A stretch of DNA of 37,236 bases from Bacteroidota bacterium (GTDB taxonomy: Bacteria; Bacteroidota; Bacteroidia; Palsa-965). This document shows, in pieces, positions 1,141-31,193 of this stretch. Position 1 is the stretch's first letter. The number at the start of each line of letters is the position of its first letter. The stretch covers positions 1 through 37,236 of the forward strand of contig JABDAO010000017.1 in the NCBI GenBank assembly GCA_013289095.1, in the 5' to 3' direction. The notes beneath the pieces are model-generated. The model saw only the letters and a program-made list of their open reading frames with translations, was not told the origin of the DNA and did not search any database. The translations under genes were made by a program, and so were the position numbers.

Positions 1141-1776
1141 ATGGAAGAATTAAAAAAGAAGATAAAGGAGTTAGCAGAGTTATATTCAGCGGATCTTGGC
1201 CTGAAAATCGAACAGCGAAAAGAAGAAATGAAATCCGATGACAATTCTCATTATTTGGTTTACAGGGTTTTGGGAATTACAACGAAAGAAGGTCAACTTA
1301 TCGATATGTATCAAAATACTGGAAGGTTTCTTTATAAACATGCGGGATCATTTTTAGAAGATGCAGCGATTTTATGTTTAAAATATAAATGTCCGGAAGG
1401 GGAAAAGACAAAAATTCCAAATGCAATTGGGCAAAGACCTAAAACATTTGAAATTGATTTCCTGCATAAAAATGATGCGATAGAAATTAAATGGAGAGAT
1501 GCAACTACTGATGGAGACCACATTACCAAAGAACATACAAGAGTACAGGTTATAAAAAATCATGGCTACAAACCAATTAGGGTTATGTTCTATTACCCAT
1601 TAAGAGAACAATCCATAAGGATTCAACAAACATTGAAAACTCTTTATGCGGGAGTTGATGGTGAATACTATGGAGGAGATGAGGCATGGCAATATTTGCA
1701 TTTATACACAGGAGTTGATTTAAAGACGATTTTAACGGAAATTGCTAACGAAAGGGTACCTGAAAATGGAAACTAA
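1141..1776 (+). CDS. Type II restriction endonuclease, ApaLI-like family
   Basis: 211 aa with FEIDFLHKNDAIEIKWRDATTDGDHITKEHTR, which matches my memory of the ApaLI-like REase family (E...D...EIKW PD-(D/E)XK-like core). It overlaps a DNA methyltransferase ORF. Confidence 0.8.
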   Translation: MEELKKKIKELAELYSADLGLKIEQRKEEMKSDDNSHYLVYRVLGITTKEGQLIDMYQNTGRFLYKHAGSFLEDAAILCLKYKCPEGEKTKIPNAIGQRPKTFEIDFLHKNDAIEIKWRDATTDGDHITKEHTRVQVIKNHGYKPIRVMFYYPLREQSIRIQQTLKTLYAGVDGEYYGGDEAWQYLHLYTGVDLKTILTEIANERVPENGN

Positions 1777-2965
1777 TAAAATTATACACGGCAATTGTGT
1801 TGAAAAGCTAAATGATATTTCAAGCCACCAAATTGATTTGGTATACTTTGACCCGCCATTTTTCACTCAAAAAAAACATACTCTTTCTAGTCGTGATAAT
1901 TCTAAAGTTTATGAATTTGACGACAAGTACGATTCAATAGATGAGTATTTACAATTAATTGAAAACACTTTAATCCAATGCAAGAGATTGCTTAAGGATT
2001 CAGGGAGTGTTTTCTTGCATTGCGATAAAACAGCCTCACATAATATCAGAATTATTTTAGATAAAGTATTTGGAAAAGAGAACTTTCAAAGTGAGATAAT
2101 CTGGTCATATAAACGATGGTCTAATGCAAAAAAAGGGTTATTAAACTCTCATCAAATAATATTTTTCTATTCCAAGACGGATCAATTCAAGTTTAATACG
2201 ATTTACACTGATTACTCTGCGACAACTAACTTAGATCAAATATTACAGGACAGAGAAAGGAATGAAAATGGGAAATCTATTTACAAAAGGGATGACGAAG
2301 GTAATGTCATTATAGGGAAAGGAAAAAAAGGTGTACCATTGTCTGATGTATGGGAAATTCCATATTTGAACCCAAAGGCAAAAGAGAGAAGTGGCTATCC
2401 TACTCAAAAGCCCGTATTGCTTTTAAATCAAATAATAAATATTTCTACCAATGAAGGAGATATTGTATTAGACCCTTTCTGTGGAAGTGGAACAACTTGT
2501 GTTTCTGCAAAACTATTGAAAAGGAAGTACATTGGAATTGACGTTTCAATTGACGCAGTAAATTTAGCATACTCTCGACTTGAAGAGATGGTAATTACGG
2601 AATCTAATTTGTTAAAAAAGGGAATGGATGTTTATTTGGAAAAAACAGAAAAGGAATTAGCAATATTATCAAATTTAAATGCCTTTCCAGTACAGCGAAA
2701 TTCTGGAATTGATGGGTTTTTGAAGGAGCATTATGAGGGGAAACCTGTTCCTGTTAAAATTCAAGGTGAATATGAAACAGTTGAGGATGCAATTGAAAAA
2801 ATAGAGAAGGCGTCAATAGGGAAAAGCTATGCAATGAAAATTGTAATTCAAACAAGGGTCTCAAAAACCAGTCGCCTATTTGACTTTCAGACTGATGTCG
2901 TAATAATTAAATCACTTGAGTTACAAATCAAAGAAGAATTTTCAAGGTGCTATAGAAATATATAA
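1766..2965 (+). CDS. DNA methyltransferase (N4-cytosine/N6-adenine, beta-class), R-M partner
   Basis: Motif IV DLVYFDPPFF precedes motif I LDPFCGSGTTCVSAKLLKRKYIGIDV (beta-class order). The likely start is ATG 1766 (METNKIIHGNCVE), overlapping the REase 3' end by 11 bp. Confidence 0.9.
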   Translation: METNKIIHGNCVEKLNDISSHQIDLVYFDPPFFTQKKHTLSSRDNSKVYEFDDKYDSIDEYLQLIENTLIQCKRLLKDSGSVFLHCDKTASHNIRIILDKVFGKENFQSEIIWSYKRWSNAKKGLLNSHQIIFFYSKTDQFKFNTIYTDYSATTNLDQILQDRERNENGKSIYKRDDEGNVIIGKGKKGVPLSDVWEIPYLNPKAKERSGYPTQKPVLLLNQIINISTNEGDIVLDPFCGSGTTCVSAKLLKRKYIGIDVSIDAVNLAYSRLEEMVITESNLLKKGMDVYLEKTEKELAILSNLNAFPVQRNSGIDGFLKEHYEGKPVPVKIQGEYETVEDAIEKIEKASIGKSYAMKIVIQTRVSKTSRLFDFQTDVVIIKSLELQIKEEFSRCYRNI

Positions 2966-6883: not shown

Positions 6884-7557
6884 TTCAGGGTCACCTTATA
6901 CCCGATGCCGCGTACTGTTTCCAGCCAATCGGTTTCGGCAAAGGCCGAAAGTTTTTTTCGGAGGTTTTTGATGTGTACATCCATGTAATTGCTGTCATAA
7001 TCATCTTCCAGTATATTTCCCCAGATATGCTCGGTGAGTTGCAGCCGGGTAAGGACCCTGTTTTTGTTAAGGAGCAGGTAATGCAGGATGTCGAATTCTT
7101 TTTTTGTGAGCGCCACTTCCTTGTCGCCACAGCTTACGGTGCGGTTCTGTATATCCATGACAAGACCGTAGAAAGAGATGGTGTTTTTTTTCAGACCGTG
7201 ACGGCGACGTGTGATGGCCTGCATACGGCTGTGAAGCTCGGGCAGAGAAAAGGGTTTAGCCAGGTAATCGTCGGCCCCGAGGTTGAGCCCCGCAATCTTA
7301 TCGCCTGTGGCCCCGCGGGCAGTAAGAACAATGAACGAAGCCTCTTTCTCGGCGTTTTTTGCTTCCTCGATCAGACTGAGGCCATCCCCATCCGGAAGAC
7401 CCAGATCCAACAGGATGAAATCATAATTGTTTACATAGATTTTTTCAGAAGCCTCTCTCTTCGTCCTGGCTATATCGCAGGTAAAATTTTCCTTGGCCAG
7501 ATAAATACCGATTTCCCGGCTTAGGGTTTGTTCATCTTCAACAATCAGGACATTCAT
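6880..7557 (-). CDS. OmpR/PhoB-family response regulator
   Basis: Receiver domain MNVLIVEDEQTLSREI...DFILLDLGLPDGDGL...LTARGATGDKIAGLNLGADDYLAKPF plus a winged-helix C-terminus. It overlaps the histidine kinase start by 4 bp. Confidence 0.95.
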   Translation of the reverse strand: MNVLIVEDEQTLSREIGIYLAKENFTCDIARTKREASEKIYVNNYDFILLDLGLPDGDGLSLIEEAKNAEKEASFIVLTARGATGDKIAGLNLGADDYLAKPFSLPELHSRMQAITRRRHGLKKNTISFYGLVMDIQNRTVSCGDKEVALTKKEFDILHYLLLNKNRVLTRLQLTEHIWGNILEDDYDSNYMDVHIKNLRKKLSAFAETDWLETVRGIGYKVTLK

Positions 7558-7630
7558 GGGTGCAGTGTGTGTGTTACCTTGGGGTGAATAGGATGTTTGA
7601 TCCTTACTGTCAGTTGTTGGTCAGCAGAAT

Positions 7631-9343
7631 TTATTTCTTTTGTCCTTTGTTTAAAATTTCTTTCACCGGGGTGGCATCCTTCTTTCTTCCTTTAAAAGAA
7701 AACCAGGCCCAGATACCTCCTCCAATGAGCAGGAAATACAGCAGATACGATTTGGAGATATGATCGGATTGAACAAAGGTAAAGAACCGTTTCCATCTGA
7801 ATTTTTCAGCAAAAGGAGTATCCTTCTTGATCGACATCCAGATAAACACCGGTTTCCCAACGATATGATCTTCGGGTACAAAGCCCCAGTAACGCGAATC
7901 GAGGGAGTTATGTCTGTTATCGCCCAGCATGAAATAGTAGTTTTGCTTAAAGGTATAGCTTGTGGAAGGTTTTCCGTTGATGATAATCTGTCCGTTTTTC
8001 TTTTCGAGTTTATTCCCTTCATACACCCCGATGATGCGTTCGTAGAGGGGCAAGTTGAGTGTGTCGAGGGCAACCGAAGCGCCTTGTTGGGGCGCCAGCA
8101 CAGGGCCATAGTTGTCCTTTGTCCAGCGGTAATGATCTGAATGGGGGAATACATCGAAATCTCTTCGTACATTATATGTTGAATCGCAAAGTTCCTGGAT
8201 TGATTTGTCGTCTATCTGTTTCAGGATCTCCACATCATGGGCCGTAAGTTGTACTTCAAGGATATTGGTATTATTCTGATACACCGGCTGGGGCCTGTCG
8301 GTAATGTCAAGTTCTTTGCCAAGCCTGAGCTGACGCGGGTTCTCATCAAAAATGGTGGTAGAGTCAAAAAGGAGGTATTTGCGGTTATCGATCAGATAAC
8401 TGTATTGAACATTGGGTGGCACATAGGCCGGTTGTCCGTTGATAAAGATGGTTTTGTTCCGGATCTCAAATTTGTCCCCAGGCAGTACCACACAGCGTTT
8501 TACATAGTTATCGAGTTTGTCGACTGGTCTTGCCACCACATCGCCCAGGGGTTGTCCATCGCGTATATCGTAGGCCGTGGGGTCAAGCACTTTGTTCCGT
8601 CCGTTGCGCCGGCAGAGTGCATAATAGCTTTGGTCTGAGTGATGCAGTTCAACCGTATCGCCTTCGGGCCAATTAAAGACCACATAGTCGTTTCGTTCGA
8701 CCTTGCCCAGGCCCGGTAATCTGACGTTCGGAAGTTTGATCCAGTTCAGGTAGCTAGGCATGCTTTTAGAAAGGGGCATGGTGTTGTGGGCAAACGGAAA
8801 GGAAAGGGGGGTGTTGGGCACCTTGGCCCCATAGCTGATCTTGCTGACAAACAGATAATCGCCCACAAGCAACGATTTTTCAAGCGAAGAGGTAGGGATG
8901 GTGAACGCTTCGAAAAAGAAGGTCCGGATAATTGTTGCCGCAACCACAGCAAACAAACCGGCTTCTCCCCACTCGCGCATCAGGGTTTTCTTGGCCCGTA
9001 TTTCAACCGGGGGGCCAGTCCAGGTTTCGGTTTTGCTAAAACCCAGCATGGGGAGGCAGATAAAATAACCGATCAGGGCAAAAAGATGTTCTTTGAGCGT
9101 ACGTTTTCCAAAGGCTTTGGATGTCTCCACAAACAGGATGAATAGCATCAGCCAGCTGATAGTTGGGATGAGGATCAGAAAGATCCACCACCAGGGCTTT
9201 TTCAGGATTTTTAGCCAAACCACAAAATGATACACGGGAACAAGGGCTTTCCAGCCTTGCTCACCGGCTTTTTCAAAGATCTTATAGAGCCCGGCAAAAA
9301 GAAGAAGGATGCTGAGAAGAAGGAAGTACTGGATGGGTTGCAT
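7631..9343 (-). CDS. lepB: Signal peptidase I (S26A), with N-terminal multi-TM extension
   Basis: FFFEAFTIPTSSLEKSLLVGDYLFVSK (catalytic Ser region), DNYVKRCVVLPGDKFEIRN (Lys region), YFMLGDNRHNSLDSRYWGFVPEDHIVGKP. Confidence 0.92.
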   Translation of the reverse strand: MQPIQYFLLLSILLLFAGLYKIFEKAGEQGWKALVPVYHFVVWLKILKKPWWWIFLILIPTISWLMLFILFVETSKAFGKRTLKEHLFALIGYFICLPMLGFSKTETWTGPPVEIRAKKTLMREWGEAGLFAVVAATIIRTFFFEAFTIPTSSLEKSLLVGDYLFVSKISYGAKVPNTPLSFPFAHNTMPLSKSMPSYLNWIKLPNVRLPGLGKVERNDYVVFNWPEGDTVELHHSDQSYYALCRRNGRNKVLDPTAYDIRDGQPLGDVVARPVDKLDNYVKRCVVLPGDKFEIRNKTIFINGQPAYVPPNVQYSYLIDNRKYLLFDSTTIFDENPRQLRLGKELDITDRPQPVYQNNTNILEVQLTAHDVEILKQIDDKSIQELCDSTYNVRRDFDVFPHSDHYRWTKDNYGPVLAPQQGASVALDTLNLPLYERIIGVYEGNKLEKKNGQIIINGKPSTSYTFKQNYYFMLGDNRHNSLDSRYWGFVPEDHIVGKPVFIWMSIKKDTPFAEKFRWKRFFTFVQSDHISKSYLLYFLLIGGGIWAWFSFKGRKKDATPVKEILNKGQKK

Positions 9344-15088: not shown

Positions 15089-18000
15089 TTGAAAAAAATA
15101 ATCCCGATTATTTTTTCACTATTCGTGACCAGCAACCAGCTGTTTGCTCAAGGTGCGCCCGCATGTCCCTCGGTGAATGCCGGAAGCCCTGTCACCATTT
15201 GTAATGGGCAATGCACCACCCTGTCAGCGGCTGTCGTTTCAAATAACCAGACTTCTTCCTATTCTGTCAGTTCGATTCCATATGTTCCATATCCCTATAC
15301 GGGTGCAGCGATACTTGTTGGCGCCGATGATGTATGGAGCAGCACTGTCAATCTGGGATTCAATTTTTGTTATTTTGGAAATCATTACAACCAGGCTGTA
15401 CTCGGAGACAACGGGGAACTTACCTTCGACCTGACCAATGCCAACGGATATGACAACTGGCAACTGACCACAGCTCTTCCGAATACAAACGATCTCCCGG
15501 GGCCAACCATTTGTGGAGCGTTCAGGGATATGGACGGGGGGCTTGGAGGTCATTCGTACATTGAAACCCTTGGCACGGCGCCCTGTAGGGAACTGATCAT
15601 GAGCTGGGTGAATGTTCCTCTCTTTGACAACGGGGCTGGAGTTTGCAATGGCACTCCAAACACCACCCTTCAGATTGTACTTTACGAAAACACCAATTAT
15701 ATAGACGTCTATATTCAAAACAGTTTTTCCTGCGCCGCATGGAACGGCGGGGCTGGTATTATCGGGATCCAAAATGCTGCGGGTACAGTGGCCGTTTGTC
15801 CCCCAAACCGTAATTTCCCGACTGCATGGACCGCTAATAACGAAGCCTGGAGATTTTCTCCAACCGGTGCGCCCTCGTATGCAATCAACTGGACAGGACC
15901 TCTTGGGGTGGTAGGAGCCGGTACAAGCGTGAGTGTTTGTCCAACGACCAATTCAACCTATACCGCAACGATGACAGTCACCAACTGCGATGGAGGTGTT
16001 ACCACTTATGCCAACACCGTGCCGGTTACTGTAACGACCAACACTCCGGTCACCCTTGCCCCGACAACGGGTACTATTTGCGGTGGAGTTGGAAATGTAT
16101 CACTTGTTGCAACCGGAGCAGGCACTTTTAGCTGGAGTCCGGCGGGAGGATTGAATGTAACAACCGGTACTACCGTACTGGCAAACCCGGTAGCCGCTAC
16201 TACTTATACTGTTACCCAGACAAACGGCGCTTGTTCAAGCAAGGCTACCGCTGTGGTGAGCGTAGGTAACCCGGCAACGCTTTCTTCAACACAAACAAAT
16301 ATTGCCTGTAATGGAGGAAGCACAGGGGCGAGTACAGTCACTGCAAGTTTGGGAACAGCTCCGTATACCTATGCCTGGTCGGGTGGGGGAGGAACAGCGG
16401 CAACAGCCTCCGGGCTTGCCGCAGGAACCTATGTGGTAACAGTTTCTACCGCGCTGGGATGCCAAAGCACCAATACGGTTACACTTACACAACCTACAGC
16501 CCTGGCCTTAACAACCGGATCTACAGCAGCCAACTGCGGAGGATCTACAGGTACAGCTACAGTAACCGCAAACGGGGGCACTTCGGCCTATACCTATTCC
16601 TGGAGCCCTGCGCCGGCAGGAGGACAGCTTACGCCTACGGCTACAGGGCTCCCGGCAAATACCTATTCGGTGCTGGTTACCGATGCGCATGGGTGTACAA
16701 AAAACACGACCATGGTTGTTACCAATGTTGCGGGCCCAACCAGTGCACTTGGTCCTATTGCCAATAACTCCTGTAATGCCAGCTGTAATGGTACCGCCAC
16801 AGTCAACGCTGCCGGTGGTACCGGTCTGTTGACGTATTCCTGGTCAGGCAATCCGAGTACGACAGCTACTGCCAGCTCCCTTTGTGTGGGAACGTACACG
16901 TGCACCGTAACCGATGCCAATGGATGTAAAATAACGCAACCCGCCACGATCACTCAACCTGCGGTGCTCACGCTCACACCTGGTACAACAGCTGCTACAT
17001 GCGGTTCTTCAAACGGTCAGGCCACGGTTGCCGTAATCGGTGGAACAGTAGGTTATACCTATTCCTGGGTACCCGCTCCAACCGGCGGGCAGGGAACCAA
17101 TACGGCTACCGGTCTGGCGGCTGGAACCTATACCGTAACGGTGACCGACCATAATTTATGCGTTCAAAGTCTTCCGATAACCGTAAATAATAACGGAGGG
17201 CCGGCTGTTTCTCTTTCTACTTCAGCAGCTCCTGCATGTAACGGAGGATGTAACGGTACGGCCACAATTACCGCTACCGGAGGAACCGGAGCGCTGACCT
17301 ATTCCTGGTCGCCAAACGTTGGCGCTGCAGCCACTGTATCCAATTTATGTTCAGGCACATCGTACACCTGCAATGTAAAAGATGCCAATGGTTGCTTAAG
17401 CAGTCAGATTGTAACAGTAACACAACCATCCTTGCTCACCCTAACACCCACCAATACCAACACCAGCTGTCACGCTGTTTGCGATGGAACTGCTACTGCT
17501 ACAGCTGGTGGCGGTACGGGCAGCTATACGTATTCCTGGTCGCCGAATGTCAATTCAACATTAACGGCCTCGGCGCTTTGCCAGGGAACGTATACCTGCC
17601 ACCTCACCGATGCCCATGGTTGCACCACACAGCAAACGTATACAATCACCCAACCTGCCGCACTCACCTCGGTTCCTGCCAGCACTGCTGCATTGTGTAA
17701 CGGGTCATGCAATGGAACGGCAACCATCACTGCCGGTGGAGGGACATCTGGCTATACGTATTCCTGGACAGGTAACCCAAGTACGACCCCTACCGCAAAT
17801 TTGCTTTGCGCAGGCACCTATTCATGTACGCTAACCGATGCACATGGTTGTTCAAGGGTACAGCCCGTAACCGTGACCCAACCAGCCATTCTTTCGTTAA
17901 CACCGGGTTCTACACCTTCAACATGCGGTGCGGCAAACGGACAGGCTACGGTTGCCGTCAGCGGTGGAACGGCAGCTTATTCCTTCAACTGGATCCCCCT

Positions 18001-19984
18001 GCCAACAGCAGGACAAGGAACGAATACGGCAACTGGTCTTGCAGCAAGCACCTACACGGTAACCGTGACAGATCTGAATTCCTGTGTGCAGAGTTCTGTC
18101 ATTGCGGTTATCAATAGCGGAGCGCCAACGGTCTCTCTTGCATCCTCCGGTCAGCCTGCATGCAATGGGAATTGTAATGGTACGGCCAGCATCACCGCGA
18201 CTGGAGGGACAGGTGCACTGACCTATTCCTGGTCGCCCAATACAGGCGCGGGGTTCTCTGCATCTAATCTTTGTTCGGGGACGGTCTATACCTGTTTTGT
18301 GAAAGATGCCAACGGGTGTTTGAGCACACAGACCGTGTCGGTTACCCAGCCTGGTCTGCTGAGTATCGCGCCTTCGAATACCAACACCAGTTGCAATGCT
18401 TCTTGTGATGGAACGGCAACAGCTACAGCATCGGGAGGAACCTCTGCGTATACGTATTCCTGGTCGCCGAATATCAATGCCACAGCCACTGCAACAGCTC
18501 TTTGTCAGGGAGCATACACTTGTCATATTACGGATGCGAATGGTTGCACTGCATTGCAGAGCTATACCATCACACAGCCTGCATTACTGACCAGTATTCC
18601 GGCAAGCACCAAGGCTCTTTGCAATGGAGGCTCGACAGGGACGGCTTCTGTTTCTGTGGCAGGTGGAACCACCGGGTATACCTATTCCTGGTCGCCCAAT
18701 ACCAGTGCGAGCGCTACTGCTATTGGCTTAAGCGCATCCACCTACACTTGCCATATCACAGATGCACATGGATGCACCCAGACTCAGCTGGTTACTATTG
18801 GTCAACCGCCCGCACTCACCTCTTCAGATACTCCGGTTCCAAGTACATGTAAACAAAGCAATGGATCTATATCGGTGCTGGCTTTGGGAGGAACGGTAAA
18901 CTATACCTATTCCTGGAGCCCGGCTCCAGCCGCTGGTCAGACAACGGCCAACGCTACAGGCTTGCTGAGCAATCTGTATACCTGCATAATCACCGATTCG
19001 GCCGGATGCATTTCCACAATCACCGACAGTGTCACAAATACAGGTACAAAACCGGTAGCAACACTCAGCTCTGGCGGGGTAACTACCTTCTGCAATGGAA
19101 ACACGGTTCCGCTTACCGCCGGTGGTGGAACAACCTATTCCTGGAATACCGGTTCGATCTCCAATCCACTGACCGTAAACGGAGGTGGATCCTACACCGT
19201 TTATGTTTCGAATGCCTGCGGTATTGATTCAAACAAGATAACGCTTACCGAAGATTCTCTTCCAAGGGCAACGGTATCAGGTGTTGCAAAAATATGCAGT
19301 GGGTTTACAAGTGTATTGAATGCAACGGGAGGTGCAAGCTACCATTGGAACACTGGTGCTACAACGGCTTCGATTACGGCTGCTGTTGGTGGAATTTATG
19401 CCGTAGCGGTTACCAATTTCTGCGGGACAGACAGCGCTCATTTCACTGTGCTGGAAGACAGCGCCCACGCATTCTTCACTTCAAACGTGAGCAGTGGAAC
19501 AATCCCTCTTCCGATTACCTTTACCGATAGCAGTGGATCTAATACTCAAATCTGGTCCTGGAATTTTGGCGATGGAAATACGAGCTCGAATGTTAATACC
19601 AACCACACTTATCCCAATGGGGGGACCTATACCGTAGTGCTCACTGTAACCGATTCGGATGGTTGTAAAAGCACGCGTACAGAGGTTATTGACGTAAAAG
19701 AACTTCCATCCTGGATCACCGTGCCCAATGTCTTTACCCCCAATGGCGATGGTCATAATGATCTGTTCCTGGTATCATCCCAGGGAATTGTGACTTTCGA
19801 AGCCAGTATTTTCGACCGTTGGGGAGTAGAGATGGCCGTACTGAATGCTCCGCAGATGGGCTGGGATGGACGTACTGTAGGAGGGGAGAGCGCTGTCAAC
19901 GGAACCTACTTCTACATTCTGCATGCTACCGGTGATGATGGAAAGGTGTACAACTTTAACGGGTTTCTGACCCTAATCAGATAA
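15089..19984 (+). CDS. Giant SprB-repeat surface protein with PKD domain and gliding-motility-type (T9SS type B) C-terminal domain
   Basis: 1631 aa, TTG start, signal peptide MKKIIPIIFSLFVTSNQLFAQ. About 12 repeats of form CNGxxxGTATVTAxGGTxxYTYSWSP...GTYTCTVTDANGCxxxQxVTxTQP. PKD motif WSWNFGDGNTSSNVNTNHTYPNGGTYTVVLTVTD. C-terminus VPNVFTPNGDGHNDLFLV...FDRWGVEM...GWDGRTVGGESAVNGTYFYILHATGDDGKVYNFNGFLTLIR. Confidence 0.93.
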   Translation: MKKIIPIIFSLFVTSNQLFAQGAPACPSVNAGSPVTICNGQCTTLSAAVVSNNQTSSYSVSSIPYVPYPYTGAAILVGADDVWSSTVNLGFNFCYFGNHYNQAVLGDNGELTFDLTNANGYDNWQLTTALPNTNDLPGPTICGAFRDMDGGLGGHSYIETLGTAPCRELIMSWVNVPLFDNGAGVCNGTPNTTLQIVLYENTNYIDVYIQNSFSCAAWNGGAGIIGIQNAAGTVAVCPPNRNFPTAWTANNEAWRFSPTGAPSYAINWTGPLGVVGAGTSVSVCPTTNSTYTATMTVTNCDGGVTTYANTVPVTVTTNTPVTLAPTTGTICGGVGNVSLVATGAGTFSWSPAGGLNVTTGTTVLANPVAATTYTVTQTNGACSSKATAVVSVGNPATLSSTQTNIACNGGSTGASTVTASLGTAPYTYAWSGGGGTAATASGLAAGTYVVTVSTALGCQSTNTVTLTQPTALALTTGSTAANCGGSTGTATVTANGGTSAYTYSWSPAPAGGQLTPTATGLPANTYSVLVTDAHGCTKNTTMVVTNVAGPTSALGPIANNSCNASCNGTATVNAAGGTGLLTYSWSGNPSTTATASSLCVGTYTCTVTDANGCKITQPATITQPAVLTLTPGTTAATCGSSNGQATVAVIGGTVGYTYSWVPAPTGGQGTNTATGLAAGTYTVTVTDHNLCVQSLPITVNNNGGPAVSLSTSAAPACNGGCNGTATITATGGTGALTYSWSPNVGAAATVSNLCSGTSYTCNVKDANGCLSSQIVTVTQPSLLTLTPTNTNTSCHAVCDGTATATAGGGTGSYTYSWSPNVNSTLTASALCQGTYTCHLTDAHGCTTQQTYTITQPAALTSVPASTAALCNGSCNGTATITAGGGTSGYTYSWTGNPSTTPTANLLCAGTYSCTLTDAHGCSRVQPVTVTQPAILSLTPGSTPSTCGAANGQATVAVSGGTAAYSFNWIPLPTAGQGTNTATGLAASTYTVTVTDLNSCVQSSVIAVINSGAPTVSLASSGQPACNGNCNGTASITATGGTGALTYSWSPNTGAGFSASNLCSGTVYTCFVKDANGCLSTQTVSVTQPGLLSIAPSNTNTSCNASCDGTATATASGGTSAYTYSWSPNINATATATALCQGAYTCHITDANGCTALQSYTITQPALLTSIPASTKALCNGGSTGTASVSVAGGTTGYTYSWSPNTSASATAIGLSASTYTCHITDAHGCTQTQLVTIGQPPALTSSDTPVPSTCKQSNGSISVLALGGTVNYTYSWSPAPAAGQTTANATGLLSNLYTCIITDSAGCISTITDSVTNTGTKPVATLSSGGVTTFCNGNTVPLTAGGGTTYSWNTGSISNPLTVNGGGSYTVYVSNACGIDSNKITLTEDSLPRATVSGVAKICSGFTSVLNATGGASYHWNTGATTASITAAVGGIYAVAVTNFCGTDSAHFTVLEDSAHAFFTSNVSSGTIPLPITFTDSSGSNTQIWSWNFGDGNTSSNVNTNHTYPNGGTYTVVLTVTDSDGCKSTRTEVIDVKELPSWITVPNVFTPNGDGHNDLFLVSSQGIVTFEASIFDRWGVEMAVLNAPQMGWDGRTVGGESAVNGTYFYILHATGDDGKVYNFNGFLTLIR
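16772..19030 (+). repeat. 924-bp higher-order tandem repeat (four SprB repeats per unit, ~2.4 copies)
   Basis: Equivalent motifs recur at exactly 924 bp: TGTAAT/TGTAAC 16772 to 17696 to 18620; ACATGC/ACATGT 16997 to 17921 to 18845; CCTGCATG 17231 to 18155; CACCAG 17461 to 18385. Confidence 0.85.
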
Positions 19985-20384: not shown

Positions 20385-23300
20385 ATGAGTGGTAAGGTAA
20401 AAAGAGAACCAACCCGGAAGAGTAAGATAACCGAGCAGTATGTGCTGAAGCAAGCAGAGAATGTTCATTTCCGCCCAGACCGGAATTCTGATTTTAGTTA
20501 TAACGATGGAGATGAACCTGAAGAACGTATTCTTGAAATTGTTACCCGGTCGGGCGATGTTTCGATCGGTTCTCAAGAACTCCGAGATCAGATCAGCGAT
20601 TGGCCCAGCCGGTATCATTTAAGCGGACAGCGGGCAGATTTATTGAGGCCTGTGGCACATCTTTTAAAAGGAGATATCCTTGAATTTGGCTCTGGATGCG
20701 GAGCCATCACCCGGTATCTTTGCGAGCTGGGAGGAAATGTTACTGCCGTTGAGGGCAGTGCCCGCAGGGCAATAATTACGGCAGCCAGATGCCGGGATCT
20801 GAAAAACGTAGAAGTATTCTGCGACAACATCGAATCATTTTCGACCCCTAAGAAATTTGATGCCGTCACGCTTATCGGAGTACTGGAATATGCGCGAATG
20901 TTTATCCCTGGAGAGGATCCGGTAGCGGCGTTGCTGGAACATGTCATGACATTTCTGAAGCCAGGAGGAAGGCTTTTGATAGCTATTGAAAATCAGCTGG
21001 GCTTGAAATATTTTTCGGGCGCTCCCGAAGATCACCTGGGCCGGCCGTTTGCAGGAATTGAAAATTCATATACATCCTCAGGACCTGTCACATTCGGGAA
21101 AAAGAAAATAGCGTCGCTACTAACAAATGCCGGGTTCGGGTCAATAGCTTTTCAATATGCATTCCCGGATTATAAATTCCCGACGGCCATAATCACTGAG
21201 TTTGGCAACACAACAGGGCATCTTCATGTTTCGGACGTATTGTGTTTACGAACCGATTACATTCAAAATGTCTCCTATCCCCATTCATTTAACCCAGAAC
21301 TGGCTTTGCCCGTAATAGCAGAGAATGGGCTTTTGGGAGATCTTGCAAATTCATTCCTAATCGTTGCAGGCAGCCATCGCGAAACAGTAACCGAGTCAGA
21401 AGTGTTGGCATATACTTTCAGTACAAACCGGTCGAAGGCATTCTGTAAGCTCAATAAATTTATCGTCCAGGACAACATGTGCCTGGTGCTGAGGGAAAGA
21501 ATCTTTCCGCAATCAGAAAATAAATCGAAATGGGTGTTTCAACAACTTGAAGATGAACCGTACATCCGGGGCGAATTGTACATAGATGGCTTATTCAGGC
21601 TTATCCGTAAGCCAGGATGGACCCTTGAAGATCTTCTGGTTTGGGCCAGGCCCTATATTGATTTACTGAAAAATCTCACGACAAGCGAGGATTCGGCGAA
21701 CCACTCGGCTCATCAGAACAAAATTGATCTCGCACCTTTCAATATCATTGTAGATCCGACCGGAAAGATCTTTTCCGTTTTTGACCTGGAATGGAGGTTC
21801 CTCAGACCCGGTACCGACACCCTGGGTTATATTGCTTTTCGGGGTCTGTATCACTCGCTTCGGCGAATCAGTGAAGCCGAGCCTCCGGCTACCGACGTGC
21901 CCCTTTCTATTCTGGAATTGATTGAAATACTTTTCGAAAAATTACTTCCGGAACTGAACCTGGACACAACGGTGTATATGAAACTCGAATCAGAGTTTAT
22001 GAGCGAGGTTTGGGGATCGGCAACACTGATTTCGGCTGCAGAGAACATAGAGCTAACTCCGAAATATTCAGGAACAATTATTCAACAGGGAGGCCTGGAG
22101 TATTTTAAAAAGTTGAATGTGCAGTTGTTTTGGCCCGGTGCTGAAAAAGTGTACTCCCAGGAAAACTCAATCCTGCTTGATCTGGAGTTACAGGAAAAAC
22201 CGACCCTGTTCCGGCTGCCTCTTCCGGCGATAGCATACGAAGCAGAATCATTCAGGATCGATATCGGAAACAAACCGGGGTTTGTAAACCTACACGGTAT
22301 TCGCCTCCGGACCATGACTGACGAATTACTCTGGGAATGGAGTGCAGAGTCTTTAACCGCAAACGTTCACTATGGTTTTTTTCTATTAGAGCATGAGCAC
22401 ATGGCGGGAGGAGCAACCTTATATGCTTCGCTGACTGATGATCCTCAGCTTTATTTTACACTCCTTCCAGAGAACAGGCGTTTTTTGGCGGGTGGAAGTT
22501 ATCTTGAAATAGAGCTTTCGTCACCCACTCAGGCACAAAAGGATCTGGTGGCACAGTCTTGGTACCGGAGCGGATCGAAGATAGAGGAAATGAGCGCAGA
22601 GGTTGCAACGGTATCGAAGCAACTAAAATTGACGGAAAAAAAGACGCAGGACACAGAACGTATACTTGACATCCGTGAAGAAACCATTCGGATGTTACAG
22701 CAACAGGTGATTCAGCAGGAAGCCTCGGGAACGTTCTACGCAGAAAGTATAGCTGTGCTGAATAGAAGCCTGACACAGCATAAAGAGGAATTGACGAACA
22801 AAAACGCAGAGCTGGCAGATACCCGGGAAGAGCAGTTAAAACTTAGAACTTCTTTTTCCGAAATCAGCAGACAACTCGAATTATTCCGATCGTCTATTGA
22901 TCAGCTCCATTCGGAGAAAGAGCATTTGAAGGGAGAATGGCGGATTTCAGAAAACAAGCTTGAGGAAAGCATTCGGGCCATACACGCGCTGGAGAAACAA
23001 ACTCTTTTTGAAAGTCAGGTTACCCTGGGTTTACAGACAGAACTAGGGGCGATGAAACAGCTCTTGATGGAGAAAAAGCTGGAAAATGAGGAGCTGAATT
23101 CCAGGGGCGATCAATTGATCCTATTGCTTCATCAACTGGAGCGGGAGGTTGCCAGCTCCTCAACCGAAAAATCATCCCTGAATCATGAACTCCGGTTGAA
23201 GACAGAGGAGGCCGGTGCATTCGAAAATCTGATTCTGAATAAAGAGCTGCTGCTCGACCAGCAGCAAAAAGCGCATGATGCTGTACTGAAACAGCTGGCG

Positions 23301-23783
23301 GAGCTTGAAATGAAAATTTTAGCACAGGGTGAAGAACTGAAACAGCATGAAGTGATGACGCTCACCAGAAGTCAGGAAGCCTCAGAACGTGAAATGAAGC
23401 TGAACCGGGATTTAGATCATTCGAAAACACTGTTGCAGAATCAGGAACGTTTGAACCTGCAACTGATTTCCGAAAAAGAAACGGCTGATGTAAAGATCCA
23501 GGGGCTGACCGAAGGCTGGAAGGAGGAAAAGGCAACATCTCTACGGAATGAGGAAACGGGTAGGTTGAAATACGAACTGTTAGTTTCCATGCAGACAGCA
23601 CTCATACTGAAAAACGAGGAATTGCATCAAGAATTATTGACGGTATCTAAACAGAATCAAGGGCTGATAGAGAACAAGAATGATTTGATCATCAAGACAG
23701 ATTGGTTCCGCAAGAATTATCAACAAAAATCCTTGCTAAAAATCATTTTTAACCGATGGTTCAATAGAGACAACCCGGAATAA
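20385..23783 (+). CDS. WbdD-like protein: SAM methyltransferase, kinase-like domain and long coiled coil
   Basis: 1132 aa. Motif I ILEFGSGCGAITRYLCELGGNVTAVEGS; kinase-like loop KIDLAPFNIIVDPTGKIFSVFDLEW; middle beta-rich region; ~370 aa heptad-rich coiled coil (~740-1105); basic aromatic tail NYQQKSLLKIIFNRWFNRDNPE. Confidence 0.75.
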   Translation: MSGKVKREPTRKSKITEQYVLKQAENVHFRPDRNSDFSYNDGDEPEERILEIVTRSGDVSIGSQELRDQISDWPSRYHLSGQRADLLRPVAHLLKGDILEFGSGCGAITRYLCELGGNVTAVEGSARRAIITAARCRDLKNVEVFCDNIESFSTPKKFDAVTLIGVLEYARMFIPGEDPVAALLEHVMTFLKPGGRLLIAIENQLGLKYFSGAPEDHLGRPFAGIENSYTSSGPVTFGKKKIASLLTNAGFGSIAFQYAFPDYKFPTAIITEFGNTTGHLHVSDVLCLRTDYIQNVSYPHSFNPELALPVIAENGLLGDLANSFLIVAGSHRETVTESEVLAYTFSTNRSKAFCKLNKFIVQDNMCLVLRERIFPQSENKSKWVFQQLEDEPYIRGELYIDGLFRLIRKPGWTLEDLLVWARPYIDLLKNLTTSEDSANHSAHQNKIDLAPFNIIVDPTGKIFSVFDLEWRFLRPGTDTLGYIAFRGLYHSLRRISEAEPPATDVPLSILELIEILFEKLLPELNLDTTVYMKLESEFMSEVWGSATLISAAENIELTPKYSGTIIQQGGLEYFKKLNVQLFWPGAEKVYSQENSILLDLELQEKPTLFRLPLPAIAYEAESFRIDIGNKPGFVNLHGIRLRTMTDELLWEWSAESLTANVHYGFFLLEHEHMAGGATLYASLTDDPQLYFTLLPENRRFLAGGSYLEIELSSPTQAQKDLVAQSWYRSGSKIEEMSAEVATVSKQLKLTEKKTQDTERILDIREETIRMLQQQVIQQEASGTFYAESIAVLNRSLTQHKEELTNKNAELADTREEQLKLRTSFSEISRQLELFRSSIDQLHSEKEHLKGEWRISENKLEESIRAIHALEKQTLFESQVTLGLQTELGAMKQLLMEKKLENEELNSRGDQLILLLHQLEREVASSSTEKSSLNHELRLKTEEAGAFENLILNKELLLDQQQKAHDAVLKQLAELEMKILAQGEELKQHEVMTLTRSQEASEREMKLNRDLDHSKTLLQNQERLNLQLISEKETADVKIQGLTEGWKEEKATSLRNEETGRLKYELLVSMQTALILKNEELHQELLTVSKQNQGLIENKNDLIIKTDWFRKNYQQKSLLKIIFNRWFNRDNPE

Positions 23784-23934
23784 TAAATCAGGGCTTAAGC
23801 GAGTTACCATAAACCGTGGATCTACCTGATTGGCGTTGAAAAAATGAACGGTGGAGCTTATGTACAAAGGCATCCTAAAAGCAGAGATCTAAATCCGTTC
23901 ATCCAATCGGATTCAGGGAATAACTTGTAGGTGC

Positions 23935-24693
23935 TCACTCGGGCTGAGCATGCGAAGAGGCATCATTCACATACATATCGATAGCCGTTCGTGGGTCGCC
24001 ATAAAAAAGCATATTGCCCTTTTTCATATATGCCACTTTTTGGCAATATTTCTCGATTACCGCCATGCTGTGACTGACGATAACGGTAGTCCGTCCATCG
24101 ATCCAGGATCTTTCAATCACCCTGACAGCCTTTTCGATAAATTTCTGATCGCCTACAGCAAACACTTCATCCAGGAACATGATGTCTGCACCCGCATGAG
24201 CCGCAATCGAGAAGGCAAGACGTTGAACCATTCCGGTTGAAAAGTACTTGATCTTGGTATTTACAAATTCTTCGAGCTCGGCAAACCCGATCACTTCATC
24301 GAAAATCTTATCGATCTGAGCTATTTTCAGGCCGAGCGCCGACCCCGAAACATAGGTGTTTTCACGTGCAGTAAGTTCATGACTCATGCCAACACCCAGG
24401 TTCATGAGCATCATGGTTCCTGTGAGTTTCACATAGCCCTGGCTGGGCTGGTAGACATTGGCCATGCATTTAACGAGCGTTGATTTCCCGCTTCCGTTTC
24501 CGCCAATGATCCCGATGCATTCCCCTTTCCTGACACTGAAGTGAATATCCTTCAGCGCCTGTAAATGCCTGATCGGAGTTGGATTAAAAATATGAAAGAA
24601 GCGTTGTTTGATGGTGTTGTAATTGTCGTCACGAATGTTAAAAGTCTTGTGAAGACGGAAAACTTCAATGGCAATGTCGTGGGTGTGTTCCAT
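23935..24693 (-). CDS. Polysaccharide ABC transporter ATP-binding protein (Wzt/TagH-like)
   Basis: Walker A GIIGGNGSGKSTLVKCMANVYQPSQG; signature KYFSTGMVQRLAFSIA; Walker B ADIMFLDEVFAVGD. 252 aa with no C-terminal carbohydrate-binding extension. Confidence 0.92.
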   Translation of the reverse strand: MEHTHDIAIEVFRLHKTFNIRDDNYNTIKQRFFHIFNPTPIRHLQALKDIHFSVRKGECIGIIGGNGSGKSTLVKCMANVYQPSQGYVKLTGTMMLMNLGVGMSHELTARENTYVSGSALGLKIAQIDKIFDEVIGFAELEEFVNTKIKYFSTGMVQRLAFSIAAHAGADIMFLDEVFAVGDQKFIEKAVRVIERSWIDGRTTVIVSHSMAVIEKYCQKVAYMKKGNMLFYGDPRTAIDMYVNDASSHAQPE

Positions 24694-24710
24694 AGAGATG
24701 ATACAAACTA

Positions 24711-25508
24711 CTAGAGCTTTTCAGAGGCGTTAGGACCAAGATTTTTGAGCAGGGCAATCCCTACCAGAAGGAAAAAGCAGGCATAGACCAGGTCAAATCC
24801 CATGAGTTGCCAATCCGGGCTTTTGTTCTCCATCAGTATGGTGCGGGTGTTTGCGATAATCCCGGACAGCGGATTGATGTATTCCAGGCTTGGGAAAGAG
24901 GTGTGGAATTTTTCGACCGGATAGATAACCGGTGAAAGCCAAAACAAAACGCTACAGAGTATGCCCCAAATCTGACTAATATCTTTTGCAAACAGATACA
25001 GGTTTGAAAGAATCAGCGAAAAGCCCAACGACAAAATCATCAGCGTGAGGAGCAGCACTGGCAGAAAGACAATGTGGAAATTGAGTCGGATCGGAATAAA
25101 CTGGCAGAAGACAAAGAAAATGACGAGATTGAAGATAAAACCGATGAAATTGCTGAGAATCACAGACAGATAAATTTCGAGCTTATCCATATTTGTGTAC
25201 TCATAGAGATAGCGCTTTGTTTGTAGAATTGGGATGGTGCCAACCGTGCATTCGGCAAAATAATTGAAAAGGATGATTCCAAGAAAGACGAAGGGAACAT
25301 AGTTTGGGGTGCCGATCTTCATGATTATTTTGAAGGCGACATAATAGACAGCAACATCAGAAATAGGCTTCATCAGCGCCCATAATAACCCCATCTTATT
25401 CTCATAATACCGGAGTTTAAACTCGATCTTGGCCATGAGCCAAATGCGCTCTGATTTATTCGTATGCTTAAACCAACCTTTCACATAATCACTTAATGAT
25501 AACTGCAT
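24711..25508 (-). CDS. Polysaccharide ABC transporter permease (Wzm-like)
   Basis: 265 aa ABC-2 type permease: YENKMGLLWALMKPISDVAVYYVAFKII...LFAKDISQIWGILCSVLFWLSPVIYPVEKF...YINPLSGII. Confidence 0.92.
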   Translation of the reverse strand: MQLSLSDYVKGWFKHTNKSERIWLMAKIEFKLRYYENKMGLLWALMKPISDVAVYYVAFKIIMKIGTPNYVPFVFLGIILFNYFAECTVGTIPILQTKRYLYEYTNMDKLEIYLSVILSNFIGFIFNLVIFFVFCQFIPIRLNFHIVFLPVLLLTLMILSLGFSLILSNLYLFAKDISQIWGILCSVLFWLSPVIYPVEKFHTSFPSLEYINPLSGIIANTRTILMENKSPDWQLMGFDLVYACFFLLVGIALLKNLGPNASEKL

Positions 25509-25905
25509 CTAACGCTGTATTTGTGGATATAAAAGCCGGGCAATACCTGTATTGATTCGATGAATATCAGCCAATTCAAACGACACAATCTTTATTTGAA
25601 TGGTGAATTGCAAATATAGAATAAATTCCGGGATAGCCGGAGTACAGGTAATCTCCAAAATCTCCAAATCAGCTGCTCATTCTGACATGAATCGAGAATG
25701 ACAGACAACCGTTGTTCCTTACGAAACACATAGTCTGTAAAGCCATTAGGTTGAGGATAGTCGACAGGCTTCTGTTTTAGATGGAGAGATGGTAAGGAGT
25801 GTACAAAGAAACCCTGAAAGAGAACATCCATCTGAGTTTTCCTGAAATCAGCCTTCCCTGCTTTATTCCCTATGGTTTGCGAGAGAAAGCAAGTGCTTTT
25901 ATTCC

Positions 25906-25913
25906 TATATTTG
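25906..25913 (+). promoter_or_regulatory. TAnnTTTG -7 element upstream of the WbsX-RgpF gene
   Basis: TATATTTG, 18 nt before ATG 25932. It lies inside the longer ORF call starting at 25872, supporting the internal start. Confidence 0.5.
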
Positions 25914-25931
25914 CCATCAAACACGCTATTC

Positions 25932-28646
25932 ATGTTGCAGGCTGTCCCCAAAAGGTTCAAACTTTTTCTGAAGAATATTTATTTTTTCTTTTATCTGAAT
26001 GATGCAGAGGAACGTGAAAAGCTGATTCTCATTGGTGATTCAGGTTTGTTTGATTTGGAGTACTATAACAGTCAGTTAAAATTCTCCTTTTTAACCCAGT
26101 GCGGAGCGATTACCCATTATCTCAAAAAAGGGTATAAATTGAGCGTAAACCCGAATCCCTACTTCGATACGAAGTATTACCTCGATTCTAATCCGGATGT
26201 CCGTCAGAATAATAAAAACCCGCTTTATCACTTCCTGGTCAATGGGCACAAGGAAGACCGCAACCCGAACATGGAGTTCAATACCCAACTCTATATTCTC
26301 CTGCATAAGGATGAACTTCAAACACGAAAATTAAATCCGCTTTTTCACTTCATTCAGCACAACCCTGTCGGAAAAACGTTCGGAAATAACGCTACCCCCA
26401 AAGAGGCGCTGGCCAATGGAAAGAATAAACCGTCAGCCCCCAACCTGATTGAATCTATCAAAAATAAAAACAAAAGAAGCGGGATCCCGAGGCTGTTGGA
26501 GCTTGGTTTTGAATTCACGCCTGCCGAAGCTTTTGATGAAGAATACTACCTGGAACTAAATCCGGATTTAATCCATCCTGATATTATTCCTTTTCAGCAT
26601 TATATGACCCAGGGGTGGAAAGAGAACAGAAACCCAAACGCCTGGTTTGATATTCCCTATTATCTCGAAACCTATAAGGATGTAAAAGACTTAGAGCTTG
26701 AGCCGCTTACACACTATCTGCTTGTTGGAAAAGAACAGGGCCGAACGTTTAAAAAGGTGGAGCATGGCAATGTGCAGGCTTATTTTGAATTCCTCAATGT
26801 CCAGAATCAGAAACGTGAGCCTGGAATGACTACCGATTATGTAGAGTTCGAAGAGCACGTCGCGCTGCCGATCGATCTGCGCTTAATTGCTTTTTACCTG
26901 CCCCAATATCACCCCATACCCGAAAACGACAAAGCCTGGGGGAAAGGATTCACCGAGTGGACCAATGTATCGAAAGCCCTGGCCCAGTTTGGGGGCCATT
27001 ACCAACCAAGGTTACCTGGTGAGTTGGGATACTACGACCTACGTCTGATCGATATTCAGCGCAGACAAATAGAGCTTGCTAAAAATTATGGACTTCATGG
27101 ATTCTGTTATCATTACTATTGGTTTGGCGGTCAGAAGGTCATTGACAGGCCGTTGCAACAGATTTTAGACAATAAAGACCTCGATTTTCCATTCTGTATC
27201 AACTGGGCAAATGAAAACTGGACCCGCAGGTGGGATGGGCTGGATCAGGAGGTGATCCTCAAACAGAACCATTCTCCCGAAGACGATCTGGCCTTCCTCG
27301 AAGAAATTAAACCGATCCTGCTCGATAAGCGGTATATACGTGTAAACGGAAAGCCACTCCTGATGATTTACCGGCCTACGTTGTTTCCTGACATCAAGGA
27401 AACAGTGGCGCGTTGGAGAAAACATGCACAAAAAATCGGCATCGGCAACATCTATTTAGTGCTTGCCCACTCCTTCGATAAACAGGATCCAAGGGAAATA
27501 GGCTTTGATGCAGCTACAGAATTTGCACCCAATAATTTTAATGTAAAAGATGTAACCCATACACTCAGCCTCTTCAATTCGAAATACAGTGGGCGGGTGT
27601 ACGATTATAAATCGGCCATCAATTACAGTGTGGATTACAAAGAGCCGACGTATACCAAATTCAGAGGTGTCTGTCCGAGCTGGGATAACGAGGCGAGAAA
27701 ACCTGGGAAAGGTTCAACTTTTGTAAACAGTACCCCTCTGTTGTATATGAAATGGATGGAATACGTCTGTTTTTATACAAATCAACACCGTGCGGGGGAT
27801 GAAAAAATTGTGTTCGTCAATGCCTGGAACGAATGGGGCGAAGCAGCCTATCTGGAACCAGACCGGAAATTCGGATATGCTTATTTGGAAGCTACCTATA
27901 CCGTATTGAGAAAATTCAACAGGGATAAACTGAAGCTGCTGTTCGACACACAAAACACACAGAAAAAATCAGATACCGCCGTAGTCCTGCACTTGTATTA
28001 TATGGATCTGTGGGACGACATCAAACTGGAGCTGGACCACTTCAAGGGCGATGTTGATCTGTATGTGAACGTAATCAGTAAAGCATCCATCGAGGAGATC
28101 CGGAAAATTCAGAACGATTTTCCGCTTGCCAAAATCTATACCTTCGAAAATCGGGGAAGGGACGTACTTCCATTCTTGAAAATACTGAAAATTATTCTGC
28201 CCTTAAAGTATAAGTATGTGTGCAAGATACACAGCAAAAAATCCTTGCACCGTATAGACGGCGATAATTGGAGAAATCACCTGATCCGAAGCCTCATCGG
28301 CTCGCCTGAACGGATCAAGGAGGCCACTGCCAGACTTGATGACAACGTTGGGGTGCTCGTAGCCAGGGGAAATCTTTTTTCATACAAAGAATGGATGGGG
28401 TCGAACTCGGAGATGATAAACCGGTTCGCTGAAAAAACAAAGCTCCAGGTACCCGATGACTTTACATTTCCGGCCGGATCCATGTTCTGGTGCAAGCCTG
28501 CCGTTTTCTCCAAACTCCTGCAGGGGATGGATGAAAGTGATTTTATCCTCGAAGAGGGCCAGTTGGACGGCACCATTGCTCATGCCTGCGAACGAATTGT
28601 AGGATTGCTTTGTATTTCCGAAAAACTCAAGATAGAAGAAATTTAA
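25932..28646 (+). CDS. WbsX-like (GH99-like) domain glycosyltransferase fused to a C-terminal RgpF-like domain
   Basis: N-terminal ~38-aa repeats (FDTKYYLDSNPDVRQNNKNPLYHFLVNGHKEDRNPN); WbsX core RLIAFYLPQYHPIPENDKAWGKGFTEWTNVSKA...FCINWANENWTRRWDG...VFVNAWNEWGEAAYLEPD; C-terminus VVLHLYYMDLWDDI...FENRGRDVLPFL...KIHSKKSLHRIDGDNWRN (RgpF-like). Confidence 0.88.
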   Translation: MLQAVPKRFKLFLKNIYFFFYLNDAEEREKLILIGDSGLFDLEYYNSQLKFSFLTQCGAITHYLKKGYKLSVNPNPYFDTKYYLDSNPDVRQNNKNPLYHFLVNGHKEDRNPNMEFNTQLYILLHKDELQTRKLNPLFHFIQHNPVGKTFGNNATPKEALANGKNKPSAPNLIESIKNKNKRSGIPRLLELGFEFTPAEAFDEEYYLELNPDLIHPDIIPFQHYMTQGWKENRNPNAWFDIPYYLETYKDVKDLELEPLTHYLLVGKEQGRTFKKVEHGNVQAYFEFLNVQNQKREPGMTTDYVEFEEHVALPIDLRLIAFYLPQYHPIPENDKAWGKGFTEWTNVSKALAQFGGHYQPRLPGELGYYDLRLIDIQRRQIELAKNYGLHGFCYHYYWFGGQKVIDRPLQQILDNKDLDFPFCINWANENWTRRWDGLDQEVILKQNHSPEDDLAFLEEIKPILLDKRYIRVNGKPLLMIYRPTLFPDIKETVARWRKHAQKIGIGNIYLVLAHSFDKQDPREIGFDAATEFAPNNFNVKDVTHTLSLFNSKYSGRVYDYKSAINYSVDYKEPTYTKFRGVCPSWDNEARKPGKGSTFVNSTPLLYMKWMEYVCFYTNQHRAGDEKIVFVNAWNEWGEAAYLEPDRKFGYAYLEATYTVLRKFNRDKLKLLFDTQNTQKKSDTAVVLHLYYMDLWDDIKLELDHFKGDVDLYVNVISKASIEEIRKIQNDFPLAKIYTFENRGRDVLPFLKILKIILPLKYKYVCKIHSKKSLHRIDGDNWRNHLIRSLIGSPERIKEATARLDDNVGVLVARGNLFSYKEWMGSNSEMINRFAEKTKLQVPDDFTFPAGSMFWCKPAVFSKLLQGMDESDFILEEGQLDGTIAHACERIVGLLCISEKLKIEEI

Positions 28647-29576: not shown

Positions 29577-30317
29577 ATGACCGTTCAGGGACGAAGTTTC
29601 AAAATAGCCGTTTTTGTTCATTTGTTTTACACCCACAGCTATGTTGAATTTCAGTCAATTCTCAGCGGGCTGAAGAACCTTGATCCACTTTATTTGTTCA
29701 ATATCGGCCCCAGCCCGGAACCCCACGCCCTGATAGAACAGATCAAGACCGATTTCCCTGGGGCACTGGTACTCCAGAGCCCGAACATAGGAAAAGACAT
29801 AGGCGGAAAACTGGCTCTACTCGACCTCTACCTGTCTTCCGGGGTGAAAAGCGATTTATTTATTTTTCTCCATGATAAAGTAAGTCCCCAGATCCTGAAT
29901 GGAGAAAAATGGAGAAATCAATTACTTAAAATTGTCAGGACTGACACCTGCGCAGAGATCGTGAATCTGTTCAACCAGTGTCCACAGCTCGGACTTGTTG
30001 GCGCCTCTGAACATCTGAGTAATGAATATAATCCTGAAAACCGCAATTTTAATTCGACCAATAATTTGATTTTAAAGGAATACATCCACAAGTTTGGACT
30101 CTCTCTAACCGACTATACATTCATAGCCGGTAACATGTTTTGGGTGAGAAGCCGTATCTATGAAGATTTTTTTAATAAATTTCGTCCTCTGCAGCTCCGG
30201 GCAGGACTCGAAAAAGGAAATGTAACCGATGCCGAAACAGGCACACACACGCATTCCCTGGAGCGGATTTTCAGCTGGATTGCACAGAGTCAGGGGTATC
30301 AAATTAAAGGTGTGTAA
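29577..30317 (+). CDS. Stand-alone RgpF-like (rhamnan synthesis F) glycan protein
   Basis: IAVFVHLFYTHSYVEFQSILSGL...NIGKDIGGKLALLDLYL...LFIFLHDKVSPQILNGEKWRNQLLK...FIAGNMFWVRSRIYEDFF aligns by eye with the RgpF-like domain of the 25932 gene. Confidence 0.75.
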   Translation: MTVQGRSFKIAVFVHLFYTHSYVEFQSILSGLKNLDPLYLFNIGPSPEPHALIEQIKTDFPGALVLQSPNIGKDIGGKLALLDLYLSSGVKSDLFIFLHDKVSPQILNGEKWRNQLLKIVRTDTCAEIVNLFNQCPQLGLVGASEHLSNEYNPENRNFNSTNNLILKEYIHKFGLSLTDYTFIAGNMFWVRSRIYEDFFNKFRPLQLRAGLEKGNVTDAETGTHTHSLERIFSWIAQSQGYQIKGV

Positions 30318-30320
30318 GCC

Positions 30321-31193
30321 ATGTTCCTAAAACCGGTATTCATCAGCTCAGCAGGTAGGTTCACTGATAAGGTGCTCCACGAAAAGGATGCCACGTACGC
30401 TATCAGGCTTACGCCCGAAGCGCTTTGGTCTGCTCACAACTCCGTTTTCGAGACTTATTTTCAGTCTCCTGATCCTTGTTCAGTCTGCCTGGATCTCACA
30501 AAAACAAAGCGCTTAACGGAACAAGAACTGCAGTTGATCGAACAGGGTATTGCCCGGGTTTCATTCAGCCCCAGCTATTTGAAACACGGGGATGCGCCTG
30601 TTATTTTATTACTCACAAGCCAGGATTCGGATCAACAGTTTATAGACCTGGTAAAGAAAAGAATAGAATCGACGTTGCTTGCCCAGGGCTTTGAATTAGC
30701 ACTCCTATTTGCATTAACAGACGGTCTTCAAAACATACAGCAGAACGTTGAGAGGTGTTATTACCTCAATCTGACGCATGGTGACTTGCCCACAAATTTG
30801 GTACGGATAAATGAACTTTACGAGGAGAATATCGTCATGAATGCCTTCTTTTTTATGAATTGCAGTGAAAATACGGAGTGTTTTCAGATTATTCAGGAGA
30901 TAGTGCTTGCTGAACAACGTTTTGCTGCGAGAAAACCTACGGTCTATGCATTGATGCAACAGCTGCAAGCTCTCGAAGCAGAACGTGATCTGTTGATTTC
31001 GGAAAACAAACGTACTCAGGTTCTGGTACAAGATGGCTCAAATTATCTGAAACAATTGAAACAGGATGCGGGTTCAACGATTTTGTGGTGGGAAAATGAA
31101 AATCAAAAGATCATCCGTTTTTATCAGACCGAGTATGAATCCTTGCCTTTATGGTATAAACGGTTTGGGCATTTGATAAAAAAAATGTTTTGA
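30321..31193 (+). CDS. Hypothetical glycan-locus protein with coiled coil and WYKRFGH-type C-terminal tail
   Basis: 290 aa, ATG 3 nt after the upstream stop. Short coiled coil (ALMQQLQALEAERDLLISENKRTQVL), then IIRFYQTEYESLPLWYKRFGHLIKKMF. Confidence 0.7.
   Translation: MFLKPVFISSAGRFTDKVLHEKDATYAIRLTPEALWSAHNSVFETYFQSPDPCSVCLDLTKTKRLTEQELQLIEQGIARVSFSPSYLKHGDAPVILLLTSQDSDQQFIDLVKKRIESTLLAQGFELALLFALTDGLQNIQQNVERCYYLNLTHGDLPTNLVRINELYEENIVMNAFFFMNCSENTECFQIIQEIVLAEQRFAARKPTVYALMQQLQALEAERDLLISENKRTQVLVQDGSNYLKQLKQDAGSTILWWENENQKIIRFYQTEYESLPLWYKRFGHLIKKMF

Follow-up and report, generated by a model that had tools for sequence, protein, structure and literature searches.

What does a 1132-aa protein, encoded beside the genes of an ABC-2 glycan exporter in a Bacteroidota genome, do to the exported glycan? 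The gene lies in a 37,236-nt stretch of DNA (assembly GCA_013289095.1, contig JABDAO010000017.1, positions 1 to 37,236), here called the window. The initial annotation, made from the sequence alone, had proposed a terminator like WbdD that sets chain length through a coiled coil. Our analysis places the protein, with near certainty on sequence grounds, in a different methyltransferase-kinase family, that of ORF6-O7 and Lcin_0519. We consider it reasonably probable that the protein is a Bacteroidota ORF6-O7-type methyl-phosphate terminator with a coiled-coil ruler, whose chassis accepts different heads.

The gene (20385..23783, plus strand, as are all of its parts below) starts with ATG and is intact; a broken or chance open reading frame was rejected. 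Its 1132-aa product carries the motifs reported in the initial annotation, namely FGSGCG (residues 101-106) and the stretches DLAPFNIIVD and FSVFDLEW, which begin at D448 and end at W470 and include DLAPFN (448-453) and FDLEW (466-470). Pfam recognized a methyltransferase alone in this product (residues 98-199, E 4e-11) and returned no kinase match. The methyltransferase domain (residues ~30-275, 20472..21209), with the S-adenosylmethionine (SAM) motif E100-F-G-S-G-C-G106, was defined by Pfam Methyltransf_12, an AlphaFold2 (AF2) model and Foldseek matches to class I methyltransferases. It is followed by a kinase-like domain (residues ~318-560, 21336..22064), whose putative active-site residues D448, N453, D467, E469 and W470 are encoded at 21726-21794, and by a beta domain (residues ~573-723, 22101..22553) identified by a profile match. 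AF2 built the latter from beta strands, in line with the beta-rich domain that the initial annotation had placed before the coiled coil, and it had no match in Pfam or among PDB sequences. A predicted coiled coil (residues 783-1104, 22731..23696) then leads into a basic, aromatic C-terminal tail (23706..23780), also noted earlier, which is weakly amphipathic, has a net charge of +4 over its last 25 residues and is a candidate contact with the membrane or the polymerase.

ORF6-O7 is the methylphosphate chain terminator of Klebsiella pneumoniae O7 and acts on the terminal rhamnose, where O-3 is first phosphorylated and then methylated; the D441A substitution abolishes its activity, its kinase domain had been unannotated, and it contains an immunoglobulin (Ig)-like, carbohydrate-binding module (CBM)-like domain and a coiled coil (PMC11231755). 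We compared the window protein with ORF6-O7 (MN173773.1) by published residue numbers rather than by sequence. ORF6-O7 residues Y28, Y66, G91, G93, E112 and Y158 correspond to Y39, Y77, G102, G104, E123 and Y169 of the window protein at a constant offset of 11, and these six SAM-site columns are conserved in 71 or 72 of the 72 rows of the family alignment. The catalytic D441 corresponds to D448 by alignment position. This column is invariant, as are those of N453, E469 and W470 (72/72 rows), and D467 is an aspartate in 71 rows. When a Pseudomonas family member (L007) was numbered from its annotated start, its six SAM-site residues bore exactly the published ORF6-O7 numbers, while in two further members (L033 and L037) the distance from the first tyrosine to the aspartate was 413 residues, the same as in ORF6-O7. 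The Ig-like, CBM-like domain described for ORF6-O7 is the probable counterpart of the beta domain in the window protein.

The suggestion in the initial annotation that the DLE sequence marks an inactive or divergent kinase thus found no support in the alignment. Judged from this conservation, D-x-E-W is the normal active-site form of the ORF6-O7/Lcin_0519 family and not a sign of decay, and an inactive pseudokinase was rejected because the catalytic residues are conserved. The proposed likeness to WbdD held for the class of function, a methyltransferase-kinase on a coiled coil in a locus for an ABC-exported glycan, but not for the family, since the head groups with ORF6-O7 and Lcin_0519. WbdD was not matched by phmmer or profile search, in a library whose content of WbdD was not separately checked, nor did it appear among the top 50 fold-search matches, and a WbdD orthologue was rejected on these results.

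Structure models supported the two halves of the head unequally. An AF2 model of residues 1-745, built with a 70-row alignment, reached a mean predicted local distance difference test score of 83, with most of the head above 90; Foldseek matched this model to methyltransferases only. For the kinase region, where an APH-like kinase fold is expected of the family, separate refolding of residues 318-735 gave weak kinase matches (best E 0.026), with mostly protein kinases at the top. Given this weak fold support, we base the kinase assignment on residue conservation and the published mutant.

The coiled coil claimed in the initial annotation was found by a COILS-type score, which assigned 250 coiled-coil residues within positions 783-1104, a span of ~320 residues. 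In 200 composition shuffles the count averaged 83 and never exceeded 198. With a scoring matrix that was entered by hand, this control matters more than the absolute score; a false call was made in one of 86 catalytic heads. A plain test for 3.5-residue hydrophobic periodicity was of no use in telling the coil from the head, since it gave the globular head scores no lower than those of the coil. Residues 715-1130 contain no proline.

To place the protein among its relatives, we searched GTDB genomes with a four-member profile, which found 197 relatives, mostly in Proteobacteria. The best 80 of these 197, together with two plasmid loci and two unverified contigs, made up 84 head-bearing loci. 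In 62 of them a same-strand wzt gene is no more than 300 nt away; the family gene sits directly behind wzt, most commonly with a 3-base overlap, and 40 of the 41 neighboring Wzt proteins scanned carry the Wzt_C carbohydrate-binding domain. The gene is tightly tied to the transporter subunit that reads chain ends, and looks as a chain terminator should. By the COILS-type score, a coiled coil follows the head in 56 of the 84 members and is absent from the other 28. The unverified contigs (L009 and L010) are matches from a phage collection, and L009, which carries wzm, wzt and glycosyltransferase genes, is probably bacterial; a scan of viral contigs gave no family member. A Candidatus Contendobacter locus (L018) encodes a second short Wzt (243 aa, 7158-7889, plus strand) directly upstream of its family member.

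Within the window's own phylum the family was sparse. The head was not found in any of 52 good-quality relatives from the window's class, and the phylum sample yielded one other genome with it (G296), where it is fused to a different N-terminal domain and has no coiled coil. The head in a record titled Bacteroidetes bacterium MAG (L034) pairs with a Sulfuritalea sequence on a branch of 0.08; because this branch is very short, the record may stem from misbinning or recent transfer and not be a genuine member from the Bacteroidota. A tree of 72 heads put the window protein alone on a long branch (1.26), apart from the main group of mostly proteobacterial heads, although its exact position is unsure because branches are long. 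The Pseudomonas heads that bear the beta domain formed a clade of their own far from the window protein, so this domain would be either ancestral and often lost or moved between heads.

The initial annotation was correct that an exporter pair adjoins the gene, as Pfam identified wzt (23935..24693, minus strand, 252 aa, ABC_tran only) and wzm (24711..25508, minus strand, an ABC-2 permease with ABC2_membrane). It had overlooked that the window Wzt has no C-terminal Wzt_C domain by Pfam, and thus lacks the CBM found on Wzt in all published examples of terminated O-antigens (PMC11231755). Without this module, the usual inspection of the cap by the exporter is not possible. A profile for the Wzt_C type that accompanies the family matched neither the window genome (62% complete), the same-genus genome G002 (84% complete) nor G296, and its positive control matched in the two expected genomes. 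The window genome contains two further Wzm/Wzt loci, whose Wzt_C domains escape this profile. Both exporter genes of the window are encoded by the minus strand, so that they meet the terminator gene tail-to-tail and do not share an operon with it. Divergent from wzt/wzm is a gene for a WbsX-RgpF glycosyltransferase (25872..28646, plus strand), identified by Pfam and a candidate component of the polymerase, followed by genes for an RgpF-like protein, recognized by Pfam RgpF, and a 290-aa protein (together 29577..31193, plus strand), which belong to this glycan locus as well. A second methyltransferase is encoded between the WbsX-RgpF and RgpF-like proteins. The 290-aa protein (30321-31193, plus strand) has no Pfam match, and its short helical stretch is followed by a basic aromatic tail, YESLPLWYKRFGHLIKKMF, that recalls the tail of the terminator.

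A related locus was present in G002, a sister species. One contig encodes relatives of Wzt (77% identity), Wzm (73%), the WbsX-RgpF protein (68%), the RgpF-like protein (51%) and the 290-aa protein (29%). The same contig encodes a 937-aa protein (L005/L093) with a glycosyltransferase family 4 (GT4) head. The C-terminal half of this protein shows homology to the window protein, with 30% identity (E 2e-14) over the beta domain and E 5e-15 when the coil is included. The two proteins share the beta domain, a coiled coil (~240 residues in G002, ~320 in the window protein), a basic tail and a matching glycan locus, but differ in the head and in gene position, the G002 gene lying between wzm and WbsX and the window gene beyond wzt. 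At 84% completeness, G002 gave only a generic methyltransferase match and no methyltransferase-kinase head, and a search of the window genome, at 62%, for the GT4 head gave no homologue at the threshold applied. On the G002 contig (C187; L104, L105 and L093), wzt and wzm are separated by ~11 kb, with the glycosyltransferase genes between them, which reflects either a rearrangement or an assembly error. A clean in-place swap of heads was rejected given these positions, and because gene positions differ between the two loci, the exchange would have occurred within a rearranged locus. The beta domain also occurs on Pseudomonas family members and looks portable. In another genome (G256; L103, 763-1950, plus strand), it is joined to a different methyltransferase-like head and lies beside an RgpF-type glycosyltransferase.

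Drawing on ORF6-O7, we propose that the head of the window protein would phosphorylate the non-reducing end of the growing lipid-linked glycan and then methylate the phosphate, which would stop elongation. The coiled coil, with a polymerase recruited to the membrane near its C-terminal end, would hold the head at a distance from this enzyme; on the ruler principle known from WbdD, only chains that extend as far as the head would be capped. Contact with a polymerase such as the WbsX-RgpF protein may be made by the tail and perhaps also by the coil. The beta domain and coiled coil together form the chassis, which carries the GT4 head in the matching locus of the sister species. Export would proceed through the transporter with the short Wzt, without the usual cap check by Wzt. 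The beta domain of the terminator or another protein may take over this role, or export may be coupled to synthesis as with the CBM-less transporter of Klebsiella O1/O2; under such coupling the coil might have no ruler function. More tentatively, and with considerable doubt, the terminators of this lineage may share the beta/coiled-coil chassis while their heads, methyl-phosphate kinase or GT4, are exchanged between species at one locus, with a Wzt that reads no cap and a beta domain that possibly does.

Several observations weigh against a methyl-phosphate terminator with a ruler. The gene shares no operon with wzm/wzt, the Wzt lacks the CBM of published terminated systems, the kinase fold was matched weakly in the modeled region, and ORF6-O7 was aligned through its published numbering. 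In addition, about a third of the family has no coiled coil, which indicates that the head can work without one. This last point bears on an alternative that we consider unlikely but worth weighing, namely that the protein adds a methyl-phosphate cap while its coiled coil serves merely as an oligomerization or docking scaffold, chain length being set otherwise, for example by synthesis coupled to a transporter without a CBM as in Klebsiella O2a. The window Wzt would fit such a system, since it lacks Wzt_C and its best-scoring characterized NCBIfam relatives include a galactan Wzt, and in Klebsiella O1/O2, where the transporter likewise has no CBM, chain extension is coupled to export (PMC11231755). 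However, the coil is long, free of proline and conserved in kind on the other head in the sister-species protein, and such coiled coils are rulers in characterized terminators.

It is also rather improbable, in our assessment, that the glycan terminated by this protein leaves through one of the genome's other transporters and that the neighboring wzm/wzt genes are incidental. The convergent orientation and the two further Wzm/Wzt loci with Wzt_C would allow this, but the Wzt_C type that accompanies the family was not found in the assembly, which is 62% complete, by a profile whose positive control worked, and the chassis relative in G002 sits in the same kind of locus. Membership in the WbdD family proper is highly improbable: the domain order and the D-x4-N spacing of the catalytic loop (D351/N356 in WbdD, PMC3482155) agree, but the searches described above gave no WbdD match, the window kinase is followed by a beta domain, and published work calls the two families distinct (PMC11231755 and PMC9758233).

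The preferred reading, a methyl-phosphate terminator with a coiled-coil ruler, draws on an enzyme family, from Klebsiella O7, and a ruler idea that are already known. As far as the literature searched shows, the deep Bacteroidota member, its pairing with a Wzt that lacks a CBM, and the protein of the sister species that joins a related chassis to another head are new. If this reading is true, the methyl-phosphate terminator family reaches a deep branch of the Bacteroidota, and two loci of one genus with the same exporter and WbsX glycosyltransferase, different cap enzymes and related coils of different length constitute a natural experiment. It would then be testable whether chain length depends on the coil rather than on cap chemistry, and whether a terminator can function alongside a transporter devoid of any cap-reading domain, contrary to the rule for published terminated O-antigens.

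Elsewhere in the window, a 1631-aa protein with 12 SprB repeats, a PKD domain and a type IX secretion signal is encoded directly upstream of the terminator gene (15089-19984, plus strand); by its domains it is a gliding-adhesin-like surface protein. An ApaLI-like restriction endonuclease gene followed by an N6/N4 DNA methylase gene (1141-2965, plus strand) has 33% G+C compared with ~45% around it, and this restriction-modification pair was probably acquired recently.

Among known systems, WbdD of E. coli O9a (PMC3482155) resembles the window protein in its kinase and methyltransferase head on a C-terminal coiled coil. The order of methyltransferase, kinase and coiled coil is the same, but the window protein has a beta domain inserted, where none is reported for WbdD, and its tail, at the place of the membrane/polymerase contact of WbdD, is basic but weakly amphipathic. 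WbdD has a kinase of another family and a cognate Wzt with a CBM. The Lcin_0519 family of Legionella and other bacteria consists of kinase-methyltransferases with a frequent coiled coil beside Wzt/Wzm and is called clearly different from WbdD; it is known from bioinformatics alone, and Bacteroidota are not named as a main group in the available portion of the source (PMC9758233). Legionella members were among our relatives (L014, L015 and L020). ORF6-O7 differs from the window protein in having C-terminal glycosyltransferase family 2 modules and a shorter coiled coil, and the window system differs further in its CBM-less Wzt, convergent gene order and Bacteroidota host. In both proteins, nonetheless, a methyltransferase, a kinase or kinase-like domain without annotation, a beta domain (CBM-like in ORF6-O7 and probably its counterpart here) and a coiled coil follow in the same order, and all published SAM-site residues and the catalytic aspartate of ORF6-O7 have counterparts at matching positions of the window protein.

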